64,000 bases of DNA from Gemmatimonadota bacterium (lineage in GTDB: Bacteria > Gemmatimonadota > Gemmatimonadetes > Gemmatimonadales > Gemmatimonadaceae), in the NCBI GenBank assembly GCA_023249375.1, contig JAHFCT010000010.1, forward strand, positions 1 through 64,000, in the 5' to 3' direction. This document shows, piece by piece, positions 2,935 to 17,876 of the stretch; the stretch's first letter is position 1; each line of letters begins with the position of its first letter. The position numbers and the translations under genes were made by a program. The notes under the pieces were generated by a model, which was not told where the DNA came from, ran no database searches, and worked only from the letters and a program-made list of their open reading frames with translations.

Positions 2935-3006
2935 TAGGGCGATTCAGGACAGGGATCACGGATTGCGATTCAGGACTTGGACCGACGATTACGATTGCGA
3001 TGATCG
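2935..3006 (-). repeat. Phased TC leader of purH, sharing a 29-base element with the eno leader
   Basis: The whole purN-purH gap, read on the minus strand, consists of short units such as cctgaatcgc and aatccgtgatc. TC dinucleotides (T positions in plus coordinates) fall at 3000, 2994, 2988, 2981, 2975, 2968, 2962, 2955, 2949 and 2942, with spacings 6,6,7,6,7,6,7,6,7. The segment 2947-2975 matches 26089-26117 before eno at 28 of 29 positions, in the same orientation relative to the gene. There is no Shine-Dalgarno sequence. Function unknown. Confidence 0.75.
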
Positions 3007-12691: not shown

Positions 12692-13288
12692 ATGCGCTTG
12701 CTCGCTACACGTTTGCGTCGCGCGTTCGCGGGATCTGTCGCTCGCGCTGCGCTGCTCGCCGTCGCACTCGTCGTCTGGTTCGGCGCGCCGCTTGCCGCCC
12801 AATCGCGGCAACTGCCGTCGCTCACGCTGTGCAGCGGCTGTCTGCTGCCTCCCACTGCCTCCACTCCGGCGCTGCAGCCGATGCGCGTGGCCGGAGAACT
12901 TGGCGCGAGCGCGGTCGGCTTCACGCTCGGCGCCGAGGGCGGGCTGGTGGTCGCGGCGGGTGTCGCGCATCTCGTGACCGGCCACGGCGGCGAAGTGACG
13001 TCTCCCAAGCTCGTGCGGGCGCTGACGCCAATTATGGTCGCGGGCGGCGCGCTCGGCGCCGGCACCAGCGCCTGGCTTGCCTCGCGCATCAACGGCCAGA
13101 ACAGCAGCTGGGGGTGGGACGTGGGGGCGACCACCGTGGTCACCGCGCTGGCGTTTCGATGCGCCGGCTGGCCGATGACCAGTGAGTCGCGCAAGCGCCC
13201 GATGAGTCGCTGGCGTCGCATGGCGCCCGTCTGGATGTCGGCGCTCACCGCGACCATCGCGGCGAGTGCGACGCGCGAGCGGCGATAG
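12692..13288 (+). CDS. Small exported glycine-rich protein, probable paralogue of its neighbour
   Basis: The start is ATG 12692, preceded by aggggaa about eight bases upstream, one of the few plausible Shine-Dalgarno sequences here. The frame is open further upstream, but that part overlaps the previous gene and is unlikely. The 198-residue product has an Arg-rich N-terminus and signal peptide ending APLAAQ. A CSGC pair follows, then Gly/Ala-rich segments: MRVAGELGASAVGFTLGAEG, VVAAGVAHLV, and ALTPIMVAGGALGAGTSAWL. The order of segments mirrors that of the upstream gene, so I infer duplication and divergence. Probably an inner-membrane-associated or periplasmic protein. No function can be assigned. 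Confidence 0.7.
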   Translation: MRLLATRLRRAFAGSVARAALLAVALVVWFGAPLAAQSRQLPSLTLCSGCLLPPTASTPALQPMRVAGELGASAVGFTLGAEGGLVVAAGVAHLVTGHGGEVTSPKLVRALTPIMVAGGALGAGTSAWLASRINGQNSSWGWDVGATTVVTALAFRCAGWPMTSESRKRPMSRWRRMAPVWMSALTATIAASATRERR

Positions 13289-13318
13289 CGCGGGGAAGTC
13301 GATAGGTTACCCGTGAAG

Positions 13319-13430
13319 CGTCCGCGGTCTGCGGTCTACGGTCTGCCGCCTCCCGCCTCCCGTCTCCCGCCTCCCGTCTGCCGTCCGCCGTCTGCCGTCT
13401 ACCATCTACCATCTACCATCTGTCTTTCAT
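13319..13430 (+). repeat. Fifteen-unit heptamer array ending next to the thiolase start codon
   Basis: From 13319 to 13423 the sequence divides without slippage into fifteen 7-base units. The consensus is cgtctgc; variants include ggtctac, cgcctcc, cgtccgc and catctac. Twelve of fifteen have TC at positions 3-4, and the other three have CC. One more heptad, ctttcat, leads directly to the ATG at 13431. The strand is nearly purine-free apart from G at positions 1-2 and 6. No Shine-Dalgarno is present. Variation between units argues against a recently expanded microsatellite. Confidence 0.85.
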
Positions 13431-14636
13431 ATGCCCACGCCCGTCATCGTCTCCGCCGCGCGCACGCCGATTGGCCGCTTCCTCGGTTCACTCGCGCCGC
13501 TGCAAGGGCCCGAACTGGGAGCCATCGCCATCAAGGCCGCGCTCGAACGCGCCAAGGCGGATCCCGCCGATATTGGCGAAGTGATCATGGGCAACGTGCT
13601 GCAGGCGGGTGTGGGGCAGGCGCCGGCGCGGCAGGCGCTCATCAAGGCCGGTATTCCCGCGGCGGTGCCCGCGTACACGGTCAACAAGGTGTGCGGTTCG
13701 GGTTTGCAGGCGGTGATGCTCGCCGCCCAGGCCATTCGCGCCGGCGACGAGCAGTTGCTGGTGGCGGGCGGATTCGAATCGATGTCCAACGCGCCGCATC
13801 TCGTGTACGGGATGCGCAACGGCATCAAGTTTGGGCCGCAGACGATGCAGGACGCGCTCATCAGGGACGGACTCTGGTGCGCGTTCTACAACCGACACAT
13901 GGGTGGCCACGCGGAATACACGGCCAAGAAGGCCGGCATCACGCGCCAGCGGCAGGATGAGTTCGCGTACCAGTCGCACATGAAGGCGGTGGCCGCCATC
14001 GAAGCCGGGAAGTTCGCCGCGGAGATCGCGAAGGTGGAGATCGCCGGCAAGAAGGGGCCGACCATCGTCGACACCGACGAGAGTCCGCGCAAGGACACGA
14101 CGCTCGAGGCGCTCGCCAAGCTGCGCCCGGCGTTCCCGGGTGACGCGCCCAAGGACATGAAGCCCGAGGAACTCACCGTCACCGCCGGCAACGCGCCCGG
14201 ACTCAACGACGGCGCGGCGGCACTCGTCATCGCGGACGAAGAGTACGCCAAGGAGCACGGCCTGCCGATTCTGGCGCGCATCACCGGGTACGCCTCGGGT
14301 GGCGGAGACCCGCAGGACCTGTTTTTCGCGCCGATCGTTGCCGTGCAGAACCTGATGAAGCGCACCCGGATGAAGATCTCCGACTTCGATCTCATCGAAG
14401 CCAACGAGGCCTTCGCCGCGCAGGCGCTCGCCGACGGCGACGGGCTGGGCTGGGACTGGAACCGCGTGAACGTGAACGGCGGGGCGATCGCACTCGGGCA
14501 TCCGATTGGCGGCAGCGGCGCGCGCATCCTGACGACGCTGCTGTACGCGCTGCACGACCGCGGCCTTCACACCGGACTCGCGACGCTCTGCCTCGGCGGC
14601 GGCAACGCCGTGGCGCTCTCCGTCGAGCGGGTCTGA
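13431..14636 (+). CDS. Acetyl-CoA C-acetyltransferase (thiolase)
   Basis: This thiolase condenses two acetyl-CoA or cleaves 3-ketoacyl-CoA in the cytoplasm. The 401 residues match the family. The N-terminus is typical (VIVSAARTPIGRF). The nucleophile is Cys88 in VNKVCGSGLQAV. The C-terminal half has IEANEAFAAQ, the catalytic His357 in GHPIGGSGAR (usually GHPIGASGAR) and the acid/base Cys387 in CLGGGNAVAL (usually CIGGGQG). It heads an operon with a CPBP protease, 3-hydroxyacyl-CoA dehydrogenase and acyl-CoA dehydrogenase, which fits short-chain beta-oxidation or its reverse. The leader is a heptamer array. Distinguishing an acetoacetyl-CoA thiolase from a broader 3-ketoacyl-CoA thiolase is not possible here, so no symbol is given. 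Confidence 0.93.
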   Translation: MPTPVIVSAARTPIGRFLGSLAPLQGPELGAIAIKAALERAKADPADIGEVIMGNVLQAGVGQAPARQALIKAGIPAAVPAYTVNKVCGSGLQAVMLAAQAIRAGDEQLLVAGGFESMSNAPHLVYGMRNGIKFGPQTMQDALIRDGLWCAFYNRHMGGHAEYTAKKAGITRQRQDEFAYQSHMKAVAAIEAGKFAAEIAKVEIAGKKGPTIVDTDESPRKDTTLEALAKLRPAFPGDAPKDMKPEELTVTAGNAPGLNDGAAALVIADEEYAKEHGLPILARITGYASGGGDPQDLFFAPIVAVQNLMKRTRMKISDFDLIEANEAFAAQALADGDGLGWDWNRVNVNGGAIALGHPIGGSGARILTTLLYALHDRGLHTGLATLCLGGGNAVALSVERV

Positions 14637-14643
14637 GCGCGCC

Positions 14644-15600
14644 GTGATCTTCACGCGCCCCGTCCCGGCAGAAGATCGCGCGACGGGGCGCGTTGTCGCA
14701 GCCGGTGAGGCCGTGTCTCGCACGCGATTGATGGGACGTCTCCTCGCGTTCGCCGGCATTACGGTGGTCGCGGGCATCGTGGTCCCTGCGGTACTGTATC
14801 CGGCGGTGCGCGCCGCGCACGCGGTCGTGGGCGGGGCGTTCCTGGGCGCCGACGCGATGACGTGTATCGCGACGATTGTCGCAACGGCCATCACGGTGCG
14901 GATTTTCGGCGAGTCGTGGCGCCTCAGCACTCGACTTGGCGCCGACGCACTCGGCGCGTGGCCGCTGCTCGGGGGCATTGCATCGGGCTGGTTCGCCATC
15001 GCCGCGCCCACAGGGCTGCTCATCTGGATGGGCGCACTGCGCCTGGTGCCCGCGGAGCAGGGCAGTTGGTGGGTGGGGGCAGGGCTCGCGGCGTCCATTC
15101 TCGTGCCGGCGGCGCTCTCCGAGGAACTCGTGCTGCGCGGTTACGCGTTCACTCTGCTGCAGCGCGCGTGGGGCGTGCGCGCGGCCGTGGCGGGGACGAG
15201 CCTCGCCTTTGGACTGCTGCACCTGTTCAATCCCGGCGTTACGGTGCAGGCGATTCTCTGCGTCACGCTCGCGGGGGTGTTTCTCGCGCTGGTGCGCCTG
15301 GCGTTCAACTCGCTCTGGGCGGCGTGGCTCGCGCACTTCGCGTTCAACTTCGTGCAGGTGGCGGTCTTTCACACGCCGGTGAGCGGGCTCGCGGTGCCGC
15401 AGCCGTATTATCGAACCGTGTCCGCCGGCCCCGTCTGGCTGACGGGCGGCGCGTGGGGACCCGAAGCGGGCGCGGCGGCCGCGCTCGGGATGCTGGGCGT
15501 TAGTTTTCTGCTGGCCATTCGTGCCGGGTGGGTTCGCGTGCGCCGCCGCGGATGGCGATTTGACATCGACGTGCGGCCCCACGGCCGCAGGGAGCAATAG
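14644..15600 (+). CDS. CPBP family intramembrane metalloprotease
   Basis: The 318-residue polytopic protein begins at GTG 14644, seven bases after the thiolase stop. It has about seven hydrophobic helices. The CPBP (Abi/Rce1-like) motifs are in order: the EExxxR motif in LSEELVLRGYAF, the second motif with histidine in FGLLHLFNPG, and the third in HFAFNF. These glutamates and histidines form the zinc site of intramembrane prenyl-protease-like enzymes. Bacterial members act in bacteriocin immunity or membrane-protein processing; the substrate here is unknown. Its position between thiolase and 3-hydroxyacyl-CoA dehydrogenase, one base before the latter, means it is almost certainly co-transcribed with fatty-acid genes. 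Confidence 0.87.
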   Translation: MIFTRPVPAEDRATGRVVAAGEAVSRTRLMGRLLAFAGITVVAGIVVPAVLYPAVRAAHAVVGGAFLGADAMTCIATIVATAITVRIFGESWRLSTRLGADALGAWPLLGGIASGWFAIAAPTGLLIWMGALRLVPAEQGSWWVGAGLAASILVPAALSEELVLRGYAFTLLQRAWGVRAAVAGTSLAFGLLHLFNPGVTVQAILCVTLAGVFLALVRLAFNSLWAAWLAHFAFNFVQVAVFHTPVSGLAVPQPYYRTVSAGPVWLTGGAWGPEAGAAAALGMLGVSFLLAIRAGWVRVRRRGWRFDIDVRPHGRREQ

Positions 15601-15601
15601 C

Positions 15602-16447
15602 ATGTCCGACCGCATTGCGGTAATCGGCGCGGGGCAGATGGGGAACGGCATCGTGCACGTGAGCGCGGTGGCCGGGCACGACGTGACGATGATCGACATC
15701 AGCCAGGCGGCGCTCGACAAAGCCAAGGCGACGATCGACAAGAATCTCGACCGTCAGGTGAAGAAGGGCTCGCTTGACGAAGCGGCGAAAGCCGCGGCGA
15801 TGGCGCGCATCGCCACCTCGACGTCGATGGACGCCATCGCCAATGCGACGTTCGTGATTGAAGCCGCCACGGAAAACGTCGACCTCAAGCACAAGATCTT
15901 CGCCGACATCGACCGGCTCGCGCCGGCGGGGGCGGTGCTTGGCACGAACACGAGTTCCATCTCCATCACCGAGATCGCGGGACGAGTGAAGCGTCCGGAC
16001 GCGGTGATCGGGGTGCACTTCATGAATCCCGTGCCCGTGATGCAGCTCGTCGAAGTCATTCGCGGACTCGCGACGAGCGACGAGACGAACGCGCGCACGG
16101 TCGCACTGGCCAAGGGACTCGGCAAGACGCCCGTGGAAGTGAACGATTACCCCGGCTTCGTGGCCAACCGCATCCTGATGCCGATGATCAACGAGGCCGT
16201 CTTCTGCGTGATGGAAGGCGTGGGCACGCCCGAGGCCATCGATCAGGTAATGAAGCTCGGCATGAACCACCCCATGGGCCCGCTCGCCCTCGCCGATTTC
16301 ATCGGACTCGACACCTGCCTCGCCATTCTCGAGGTGATGCACCGGGGACTCGGCGATCCCAAGTACCGGCCGTGTCCGCTGCTGCGGAAATACGTGGCGC
16401 AGGGCTGGTTGGGGAAGAAGACGGGCCGCGGTTTCTACGCTTACTGA
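15602..16447 (+). CDS. 3-hydroxybutyryl-CoA dehydrogenase
   Basis: This cytoplasmic enzyme interconverts 3-hydroxyacyl-CoA and 3-ketoacyl-CoA with NAD(P). The 281-residue product from ATG 15602 is the standard length of the short monofunctional form. It has the Rossmann motif IAVIGAGQMGNGIVHVSAVA, a central FVIEAATENVDLKHKIF, the catalytic histidine region VIGVHFMNPVPVMQLVE, and the C-terminal dimerisation domain with NEAVFCVMEGVGTPEAID and MNHPMGPLALADFIGLDTC, ending GRGFYAY. The start is one base after the CPBP stop, and the next gene begins nine bases after this stop. The enoyl-CoA hydratase needed to complete the cycle is not in the cluster. Confidence 0.95.
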   Translation: MSDRIAVIGAGQMGNGIVHVSAVAGHDVTMIDISQAALDKAKATIDKNLDRQVKKGSLDEAAKAAAMARIATSTSMDAIANATFVIEAATENVDLKHKIFADIDRLAPAGAVLGTNTSSISITEIAGRVKRPDAVIGVHFMNPVPVMQLVEVIRGLATSDETNARTVALAKGLGKTPVEVNDYPGFVANRILMPMINEAVFCVMEGVGTPEAIDQVMKLGMNHPMGPLALADFIGLDTCLAILEVMHRGLGDPKYRPCPLLRKYVAQGWLGKKTGRGFYAY

Positions 16448-16456
16448 CCACCGTTC

Positions 16457-17620
16457 ATGAACCCGCTGCTCCATCTCACGGAAACTCAGGGCGCCATCCT
16501 CGACACGGCGCGCGCGTTCTGCGCGGCGGAGATTGCGCCGTTTGCGGCGCAGTGGGACCGCGATGCGCACTTCGATCCGACGCTCGTTGGCAAGCTTGGC
16601 GAACTCGGCTTTCTCGGCATGATGCTCCCCGAGGCGTACGACGGCCTCGGGCTCGACGCGGTCACCTACCTGCTCGCCCTCGAGGAGATCTCGGCGGCCG
16701 ATGCGTCGGTGGGCGTGCTGATGAGCGTGCACAACTCGCTGCCGTCGCAGCTCATTCTCAAGTTCGGCACCGACGCGCAGAAGGCCGAGTTCCTCGGGCC
16801 GCTCGCACGCGGGGAGATCCTCGGTGCCTTTGCGCTCTCCGAGCCAGACGCGGGCTCAGACGCTGCGTCGATGCGGGCCCAGGCCGTGCGTGACGGCGAC
16901 GGCTGGATTCTCAATGGCACCAAGGCGTGGATCTCGGCCGGCGGCCACGCGGGTGTCATTCTCGCGATGGCGCGCACCGACACGCCGGACGCGCGCCGGG
17001 GCAGCAAGGGCATCGGCGCGTTCATCCTGACGCCCGACTTGCCGGGCTTCAAGGTCGGCAAGAAGGAAAACAAGATGGGGCTGCGCGCGTCGGAGACGGT
17101 GCAACTCGTTTTCGACAACATGCGCGTCCCCGGCTGCCGACTGCTGGGCGATCCGGCGCAGGGCTTTGCGTACGCGCTCCAGACACTCGAGCACGGGCGG
17201 TTGGGCATCGCGGCACAGGCACTCGGCATCGCGCGCGCGGCCTTCGAGCATGCGGCCGCGTACGCGGCCGAACGGCAGCAGTTTGGCCGGCCGATTGGCG
17301 AGTTCCAGGGGATCCAGTTCAAGCTGGCCGACATGGCGACGCGCATCAACGCCGCGCGGTCGCTCATTCACGCGACCGCGGCCGCGAAGGACCGCGGCCT
17401 GCCGGTGGGTGAGTACGCCTCCATGTGCAAGCTCTTCGCCACCGAGACGGCGATGTGGGTCACGACGCAGGCCATCCAGGTGTTCGGCGGCTACGGCTAC
17501 ACGACCGATTATCCGGTGGAGAAGCTCTTCCGCGACGCGAAGGTGACGGAGATTTACGAGGGGACGTCGGAGATCCAGCGAATCGTGATTGGGCGGGCGG
17601 CGTTGAAAGGGAGAGGCTAG
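16457..17620 (+). CDS. Short-chain acyl-CoA dehydrogenase
   Basis: This FAD flavoenzyme oxidises acyl-CoA to trans-2-enoyl-CoA and passes electrons to electron-transfer flavoprotein. The 387 residues fit the family. Features are the N-terminal helical domain (GFLGMMLPEAYDGLGLDAVT), the FAD/substrate signature ALSEPDAGSDAASM, the IGAFIL and GLRASETVQLVFDNMRVPG beta domain, and the C-terminal domain with RQQFGRPIGEFQGIQFKLAD. The catalytic base is Glu368 in EIYEGTSEIQRIVIGR, the position used by short-chain and butyryl-CoA dehydrogenases. It is the last gene of the thiolase operon. etfAB are not in the window. A 256-base gap follows with a weak hairpin but no U-tract terminator. Confidence 0.94.
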   Translation: MNPLLHLTETQGAILDTARAFCAAEIAPFAAQWDRDAHFDPTLVGKLGELGFLGMMLPEAYDGLGLDAVTYLLALEEISAADASVGVLMSVHNSLPSQLILKFGTDAQKAEFLGPLARGEILGAFALSEPDAGSDAASMRAQAVRDGDGWILNGTKAWISAGGHAGVILAMARTDTPDARRGSKGIGAFILTPDLPGFKVGKKENKMGLRASETVQLVFDNMRVPGCRLLGDPAQGFAYALQTLEHGRLGIAAQALGIARAAFEHAAAYAAERQQFGRPIGEFQGIQFKLADMATRINAARSLIHATAAAKDRGLPVGEYASMCKLFATETAMWVTTQAIQVFGGYGYTTDYPVEKLFRDAKVTEIYEGTSEIQRIVIGRAALKGRG

Positions 17621-17830: not shown

Positions 17831-17876
17831 CGTCGCGCGTCACTGATCCATCGTCTACCGTCAACCTCTCGCCCCC
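17831..17876 (+). repeat. Heptad-phased leader of leucine dehydrogenase
   Basis: Directly before the ATG at 17877 the sequence runs in heptamers starting at 17831: cgtcgcg, cgtcact, gatccat, cgtctac, cgtcaac, ctctcgc, then cccc. TC sits at positions 3-4 of the first five units, that is T at 17833, 17840, 17847, 17854 and 17861. The unit cgtctac is identical to units of the thiolase array. There is no Shine-Dalgarno sequence. Confidence 0.65.

Follow-up and report, generated by a model that had tools for sequence, protein, structure and literature searches.

Tandem heptamer arrays at gene edges in a Gemmatimonadota genus and the probable leader of its thiolase operon

Cyanobacterial STRR heptamers are tandem repeats of degenerate 7-base units scattered through intergenic DNA, and REP/BIME elements are palindromes found at many scattered intergenic sites close to 3' ends. 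The heptamers GGGNATC of Xanthomonas and GGGGAYT of Nostoc are likewise dispersed, degenerate and intergenic (Rehm et al. 2015, PMC4692102). Whatever the direction of the open reading frame, their purine strand lies antisense upstream of it or sense just after its stop codon. Inverted pairs occur in Xanthomonas and are few in Nostoc, the repeats are mostly transcribed, and quadruplexes were the favoured explanation (PMC4692102). In marine Beggiatoaceae, TAACTGA direct repeats form many, mostly forward sets; the largest class of sets stops 1 nt short of the start codon, and a Shine-Dalgarno sequence is mostly absent (MacGregor 2015, PMC4679880).

Here we analyse an array of fifteen heptamers that precedes a thiolase gene in a 64,000-nucleotide stretch of a Gemmatimonadota genome (the window). 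The family to which it belongs fits the Rehm-type heptamers in placement, mostly without G3 tracts, and similar repeats are already known in other bacteria. Shared with the heptamers of Rehm et al. are the over-representation of tandem heptamers in non-coding DNA and the polarity of the purine strand. Different are the unit, here CCVTCTV with mostly GG and not GGG, the occurrence at tRNA edges, the periods of 7, 10, 11 and 13 bases, and a species-level turnover with matched arms. Like TAACTGA, the present heptamers can end just before start codons, and the thiolase array does so with no Shine-Dalgarno sequence. TAACTGA, in contrast, occurs mostly at start edges, is not pyrimidine-rich and has one inverted case described. 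STRR sequences resemble them as dispersed degenerate heptamers, but have other units and, in Nostoc, few inverted pairs (PMC4692102). In contrast to REP/BIME, the arms here consist of 7-mers in tandem whose sequence is not fixed, and no RAYT-class (Y1) transposase was found in the source genome. Our literature searches for repeats of Gemmatimonas or Gemmatimonadota found nothing.

The thiolase array and its probable leader

G000 denotes the source genome, the other G labels further genomes, and L numbers loci. The relevant features of the window are:

13303..13308, plus strand, putative -10-like element TAGGTT, suggested by motif enrichment and congener leaders
13319..13423, plus strand, 15 tandem heptamers whose coding strand is rich in pyrimidines (Tandem Repeats Finder; genome-wide unit family)
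13424..13430, plus strand, 7-nt spacer ctttcat without Shine-Dalgarno sequence, followed by ATG at 13431
13431..14636, plus strand, thiolase (acetyl-CoA C-acyltransferase), 401 aa, operon gene 1 (Pfam Thiolase_N and Thiolase_C; TIGR01930 over cut-off)
14644..15600, plus strand, CPBP/Rce1-like membrane protease (PF02517)
15602..16447, plus strand, 3-hydroxybutyryl-CoA dehydrogenase, HBD (NF004474 over cut-off)
16448..16456, plus strand, 9-bp gap from HBD to acyl-CoA dehydrogenase, where 8 congeners have an inverted heptamer hairpin of 99-141 bp
16457..17620, plus strand, acyl-CoA dehydrogenase (PF00441/PF02771/PF02770)
17848..17876, plus strand, degenerate heptamer remnant ccatcgtctaccgtcaacctctcgccccc, directly 5' of a Glu/Leu/Phe/Val dehydrogenase start

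The units of the array are, in order, CGTCCGC, GGTCTGC, GGTCTAC, GGTCTGC, CGCCTCC, CGCCTCC, CGTCTCC, CGCCTCC (1-8) and CGTCTGC, CGTCCGC, CGTCTGC, CGTCTAC, CATCTAC, CATCTAC, CATCTGT (9-15). The initial annotation had described fifteen slip-free 7-mers followed by ctttcat and ATG, which is exact: Tandem Repeats Finder gives period 7, 14.9 copies, 83% match and 0 indels. The lag-7 self-identity of the array is 0.83; elsewhere in the window it does not exceed 0.49, and in 20 Markov-simulated sequences of 64 kb no stretch of 105 nt exceeds this value either. Other parts of that description hold as well, namely TC or CC at positions 3-4 (15/15 units), a leader poor in purines on the coding strand (28% in the array; G 22, C 50) and the identity of the open reading frame at 13431 as a thiolase, to which both Pfam domains testify. 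Variant units (GGTCTGC, CGCCTCC) are distal and genome-consensus units (CATCTAC) gene-proximal. No partner arm for the array was found in G000.

The motif TA[GA]NTT occurs 1.05 times per kb upstream of genes compared to 0.02 per kb in coding sequence (∼50-fold; G000, G001 and G005). Of 41 start-side arrays, 12 have it in the 70 nt that precede them, compared to 1 of 41 in the antisense control. One peak of the motif lies 12-16 nt 5' of start codons and suggests that mRNAs are leaderless and that the -10 element resembles the one of Bacteroidota. The TAGGTT at 13303-13308 would place the transcription start at ∼13315, just 5' of the array. Since the array lies 3' of the -10-like motif, it is probably transcribed and probably forms the body of a 5' leader without Shine-Dalgarno sequence; the same position speaks against the promoter spacer that had been considered. 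An Rfam covariance-model search of 12900-13900 remained empty up to E = 1, which speaks against a known riboswitch or RNA family at the leader.

The thiolase itself is 88-93% identical in 9 congeners, and 6 of 9 other species have a similar TAGCTT, TAACTT or TAGTTT on the 5' side of the leader. Congener leaders end in heptamer-like pyrimidine tracts beside the ATG, with G003 as the exception, and the xTTCAT-ATG with which the leader of the window ends recurs in G005 and G010. The arrays at this site are different in the congeners, with lengths that vary between species, and an assembly artefact, named at the outset as what would refute the array, can therefore be dismissed. Upstream of thiolase in G016 and G019 (L053, L054), inverted pairs of TGACTGG/CCAGTCA and CCAAAGY sit between the upstream stop codon and the thiolase promoter; in L054 the inverted pair encloses a terminator-like hairpin.

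Placement, polarity and pairing of the arrays

When heptamer arrays were sought genome-wide, as had been proposed, the thiolase array turned out to be real but not unique. In the examined stretches of G000 the detector found at least 68 arrays of at least 4 units, most with 4-5, among which the thiolase array is the longest. The CCVTCTV pattern was present at several dozen G000 places; for such pattern searches the reversed-pattern control is uninformative because CCVTCTV is nearly symmetric under reversal. In the CCVTCTV phase, almost no variation is seen at positions 1, 2, 4 and 5; the variable positions are 3 and 7, and position 7 is never T in 241 internal units. Unit likeness in G000 is 5.57/7 within arrays and hardly lower, 5.25/7, between arrays, which points to genome-wide homogeneity and not to recent local duplication. 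These values, together with the near-fixed positions, agree with the earlier view that the phase is kept while the bases drift. The terminal unit often differs (CTG in 53% at the end vs CTA in 63% inside), and a weak gradient, by which distal units would be the older ones, makes the gene-proximal half slightly closer to the consensus in 20 arrays vs 9 with the opposite trend (P=0.06). The source assembly has N runs ∼100 bases long in contigs C73 and C83 (L298, L303, L305, L306).

Heptamer arrays were found in 11 of 11 sampled genomes of the genus, and most other genera of the family are without them. Some of the other genera examined have different heptamers at gene edges, such as CACTAGT in G016, CCACCAA/TCACCAA in G029 and CATCTGC in G012, and G019 has CCAAAGY upstream of thiolase. 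At the site of the window remnant 17848-17876, G005 and G008 carry full arrays before the Glu/Leu/Phe/Val dehydrogenase start.

We define the head of an array as the 3' end of its pyrimidine-rich strand. In the targeted loci, stop codons account for 30 heads and start codons for 27; the distance is mostly 8 nt or less, and some heads overlap the stop codon. The edges are predictions of a self-trained codon-usage gene finder, some of whose starts may be wrong; its stop codons, like the ends of tRNAs, are more reliable. An unbiased sample comprised ∼1.2 Mb of contigs from 3 genomes, chosen regardless of arrays and ∼90% coding. Here period 7 was the outstanding intergenic period with 41 intergenic vs 11 coding arrays, in line with the excess reported by Rehm et al., and periods 6 and 8 gave 2 intergenic arrays each. 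At distances of up to 10 nt, gene edges had 15 heads and 2 tails (P=0.002). Among the arrays as a whole, ∼40-60% lie farther than 10 nt from an edge. Several arrays distant from coding sequences abut tRNA ends (tRNA-Leu twice, Phe, Asp and Gln) at distances of -1 to 4, pointing into the tRNA. All this fits a polarity rule by which the pyrimidine-rich strand points into the gene at starts, stops and tRNA ends. The initial annotation had tied the array to gene starts; this tie stands, but it covers only half of the rule. Since tRNA edges and stop codons obey it too, the rule concerns functional edges and not translation alone, and a purely translational role is ruled out.

Because the pyrimidine strand points into each gene, two tracts in one gap form an inverted repeat with the purine array first. 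Among neighbouring arrays (two within 200 bp), the purine-then-pyrimidine order was found 46 times and the reverse once (P=7e-13), and this sole reverse pair has a tRNA-Asp gene between its arrays (L206). At L206:2522-2819 (contig C77 of G000), two inward-pointing arrays frame the tRNA-Asp, and the 3' end of the next tRNA, a tRNA-Leu, abuts an array.

The same genus has intergenic arrays of 10 (CTCTGCCGTT), 11 (CTCTGTTGTTT) and 13 bases (AATCCTGAATCGC), many of which head into gene edges like the heptamers, with inverted pairing likewise. This shared geometry argues against a protein or RNA that reads every seventh base, as had been suggested. The 11-base and 13-base families are not very C-rich, and the 11-base family has hardly any GG. 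Examples are G005 C1:46788-46931, C2:16020-16175, C3:32964-33232 and C1:75862-75998; the loci are L257-L295 on G005 and G001 contigs. The window contains at 2935-3006 an intergenic period-26 (2 x 13) array, GCGATTCAGGACAGGGATCACGGATT, with related sequences at L216:271-418 and L189, which probably belongs to the 13-base family. In other phyla, CCRTCTR arrays had 27 heads vs 4 tails no more than 12 nt from an edge, counts to which some genomes contribute several loci each and which include some Gemmatimonadota loci; Chloroflexota, Bacteroidota, Planctomycetes, Acidobacteria, Verrucomicrobia and one cyanobacterium are among the sources.

The gap between HBD and acyl-CoA dehydrogenase allows a comparison of the pairing across species. 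In 8 congeners its 99-141 bp reach from stop codon to start codon and consist of a purine arm, a middle and a pyrimidine arm, with units that depend on the species (CCATCTA, CCATCTC, CCGTCTA, CCATCCG and CTCGTCT-like). The mean duplex energy in the 8 species is -52 kcal/mol for cognate arms and -39 kcal/mol once the partners are permuted (P about 1e-4), and the hairpins fold with z of -3.3 to -10. The source genome, with only 9 bp here, either lost the hairpin or never gained it. Arm-to-arm unit order matched beyond shuffling in 26 of 34 informative period-7 pairs (26 vs 8). A within-genome control on 24 two-armed gaps was borderline (242 of 5000 permutations), the matching being weaker than in the single-gap comparison across species. 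Arm matching may result from selection for the stem or from template-switch correction of palindromes, in the latter case without function.

Possible origins and roles of the tracts

The position, polarity, inversion, arm matching and turnover of the tracts are observed, whereas we infer their transcription, the mutational route and any benefit to the cell. We consider it moderately probable that the thiolase array is one copy of dispersed, fast-turnover tandem tracts of short units that fill the untranslated DNA of the genus, lying here in a transcribed leader and homogenised by slippage and template switching. Such a tract would tend to sit against a functional gene edge with its pyrimidine strand into the gene. 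Replication slippage, and template switching among copies, chiefly across the two arms of one gap, may both add units and homogenise them, and purifying selection on the genes would set the tract ends. The transcript of a two-armed gap could fold into a long stem from the stop codon to the next start codon, and this stem is likely to influence how the operon RNA is processed or read through. Slippage alone leaves the fixed polarity unexplained.

The arms might instead be selected as RNA hairpins, that is as intercistronic or 3' stem-loops serving as an RNase III site, a terminator or a 3' stabiliser, comparable to REP/BIME. Near-perfect stems with species-specific sequence in 8 species and the in-register matching of the arms are in agreement with this, but many arrays, including that of thiolase, are single, and palindrome correction by template switching could yield equal matching, so that we regard such selection as possible though doubtful. 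It is unlikely, in our estimate, that the tracts are transcription-boundary elements read by Rho. A polymerase that enters the gene from either side would then first make C-rich, YC-rich, unstructured RNA, of which the sense RNA would be shielded by immediately starting ribosomes and the antisense RNA terminated. Such a function would account for the single polarity at start, stop and tRNA edges, the near-fixed CC-N-TC keeps two YC steps per unit, and Rho is present in 11 of 11 genomes. However, such termination would not require tracts to lie only a few bases from the edge, and the modest C content of the 11-base and 13-base families does not suit it.

The heptamers of Xanthomonas and Nostoc have been proposed to act as G-quadruplex or i-motif elements. 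The same role here would agree with the unit length and polarity reported there (PMC4692102), and the purine strand of the thiolase array does happen to carry four G3 tracts. Since only 4 of 68 arrays have four such tracts, quadruplexes are unlikely as a common cause, and with an 11-base family that shows the same geometry with hardly any GG we hold them to be very improbable. The initial annotation had also raised a phase-variable leader or promoter spacer for thiolase. A tandem repeat upstream of a gene, with lengths that vary between species, invites this idea, but imperfect units (83% match), the housekeeping nature of the flanked genes, the stop-codon and tRNA sites and the position 3' of the -10-like motif make it very unlikely. 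Purine-first inverted pairs with an often differing terminal unit resemble the ends of mobile elements, and a REP/RAYT-type transposase, or a telomerase-like reverse transcriptase adding purine-strand units at broken ends, could be imagined as their source. RVT_1 was not found in 10 of 11 genomes and the Y1 transposase (PF01797) not in 9 of 11, namely G000 and 8 congeners; G000, with an assembly 96% complete, lacks both matches. Spread by either enzyme is thereby largely refuted, and we give this origin next to no credence.

Coming back to dispersed, rapidly replaced tracts as the preferred reading, we add a broader speculation, which we rate as improbable. Tracts of any period and unit would be placed and kept at gene edges in many phyla with the pyrimidine strand inward, their arms co-evolving as stems though the sequence is replaced between sister species, and would form a sequence-independent boundary system that insulates genes from transcription entering from either side. 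Intergenic heptamer arrays have been noted before in cyanobacteria, Xanthomonas and Beggiatoaceae, without being explained. New here is a whole genus with arrays at the same sites, in which the geometry is conserved and the sequence replaced, at starts, stops and tRNA ends and with several periods. Taken together, this makes it less likely that quadruplexes, ribosome binding or phase switching explain such arrays in general. The cause of the polarity, and whether the stem or the pyrimidine tract acts, have thereby become testable.
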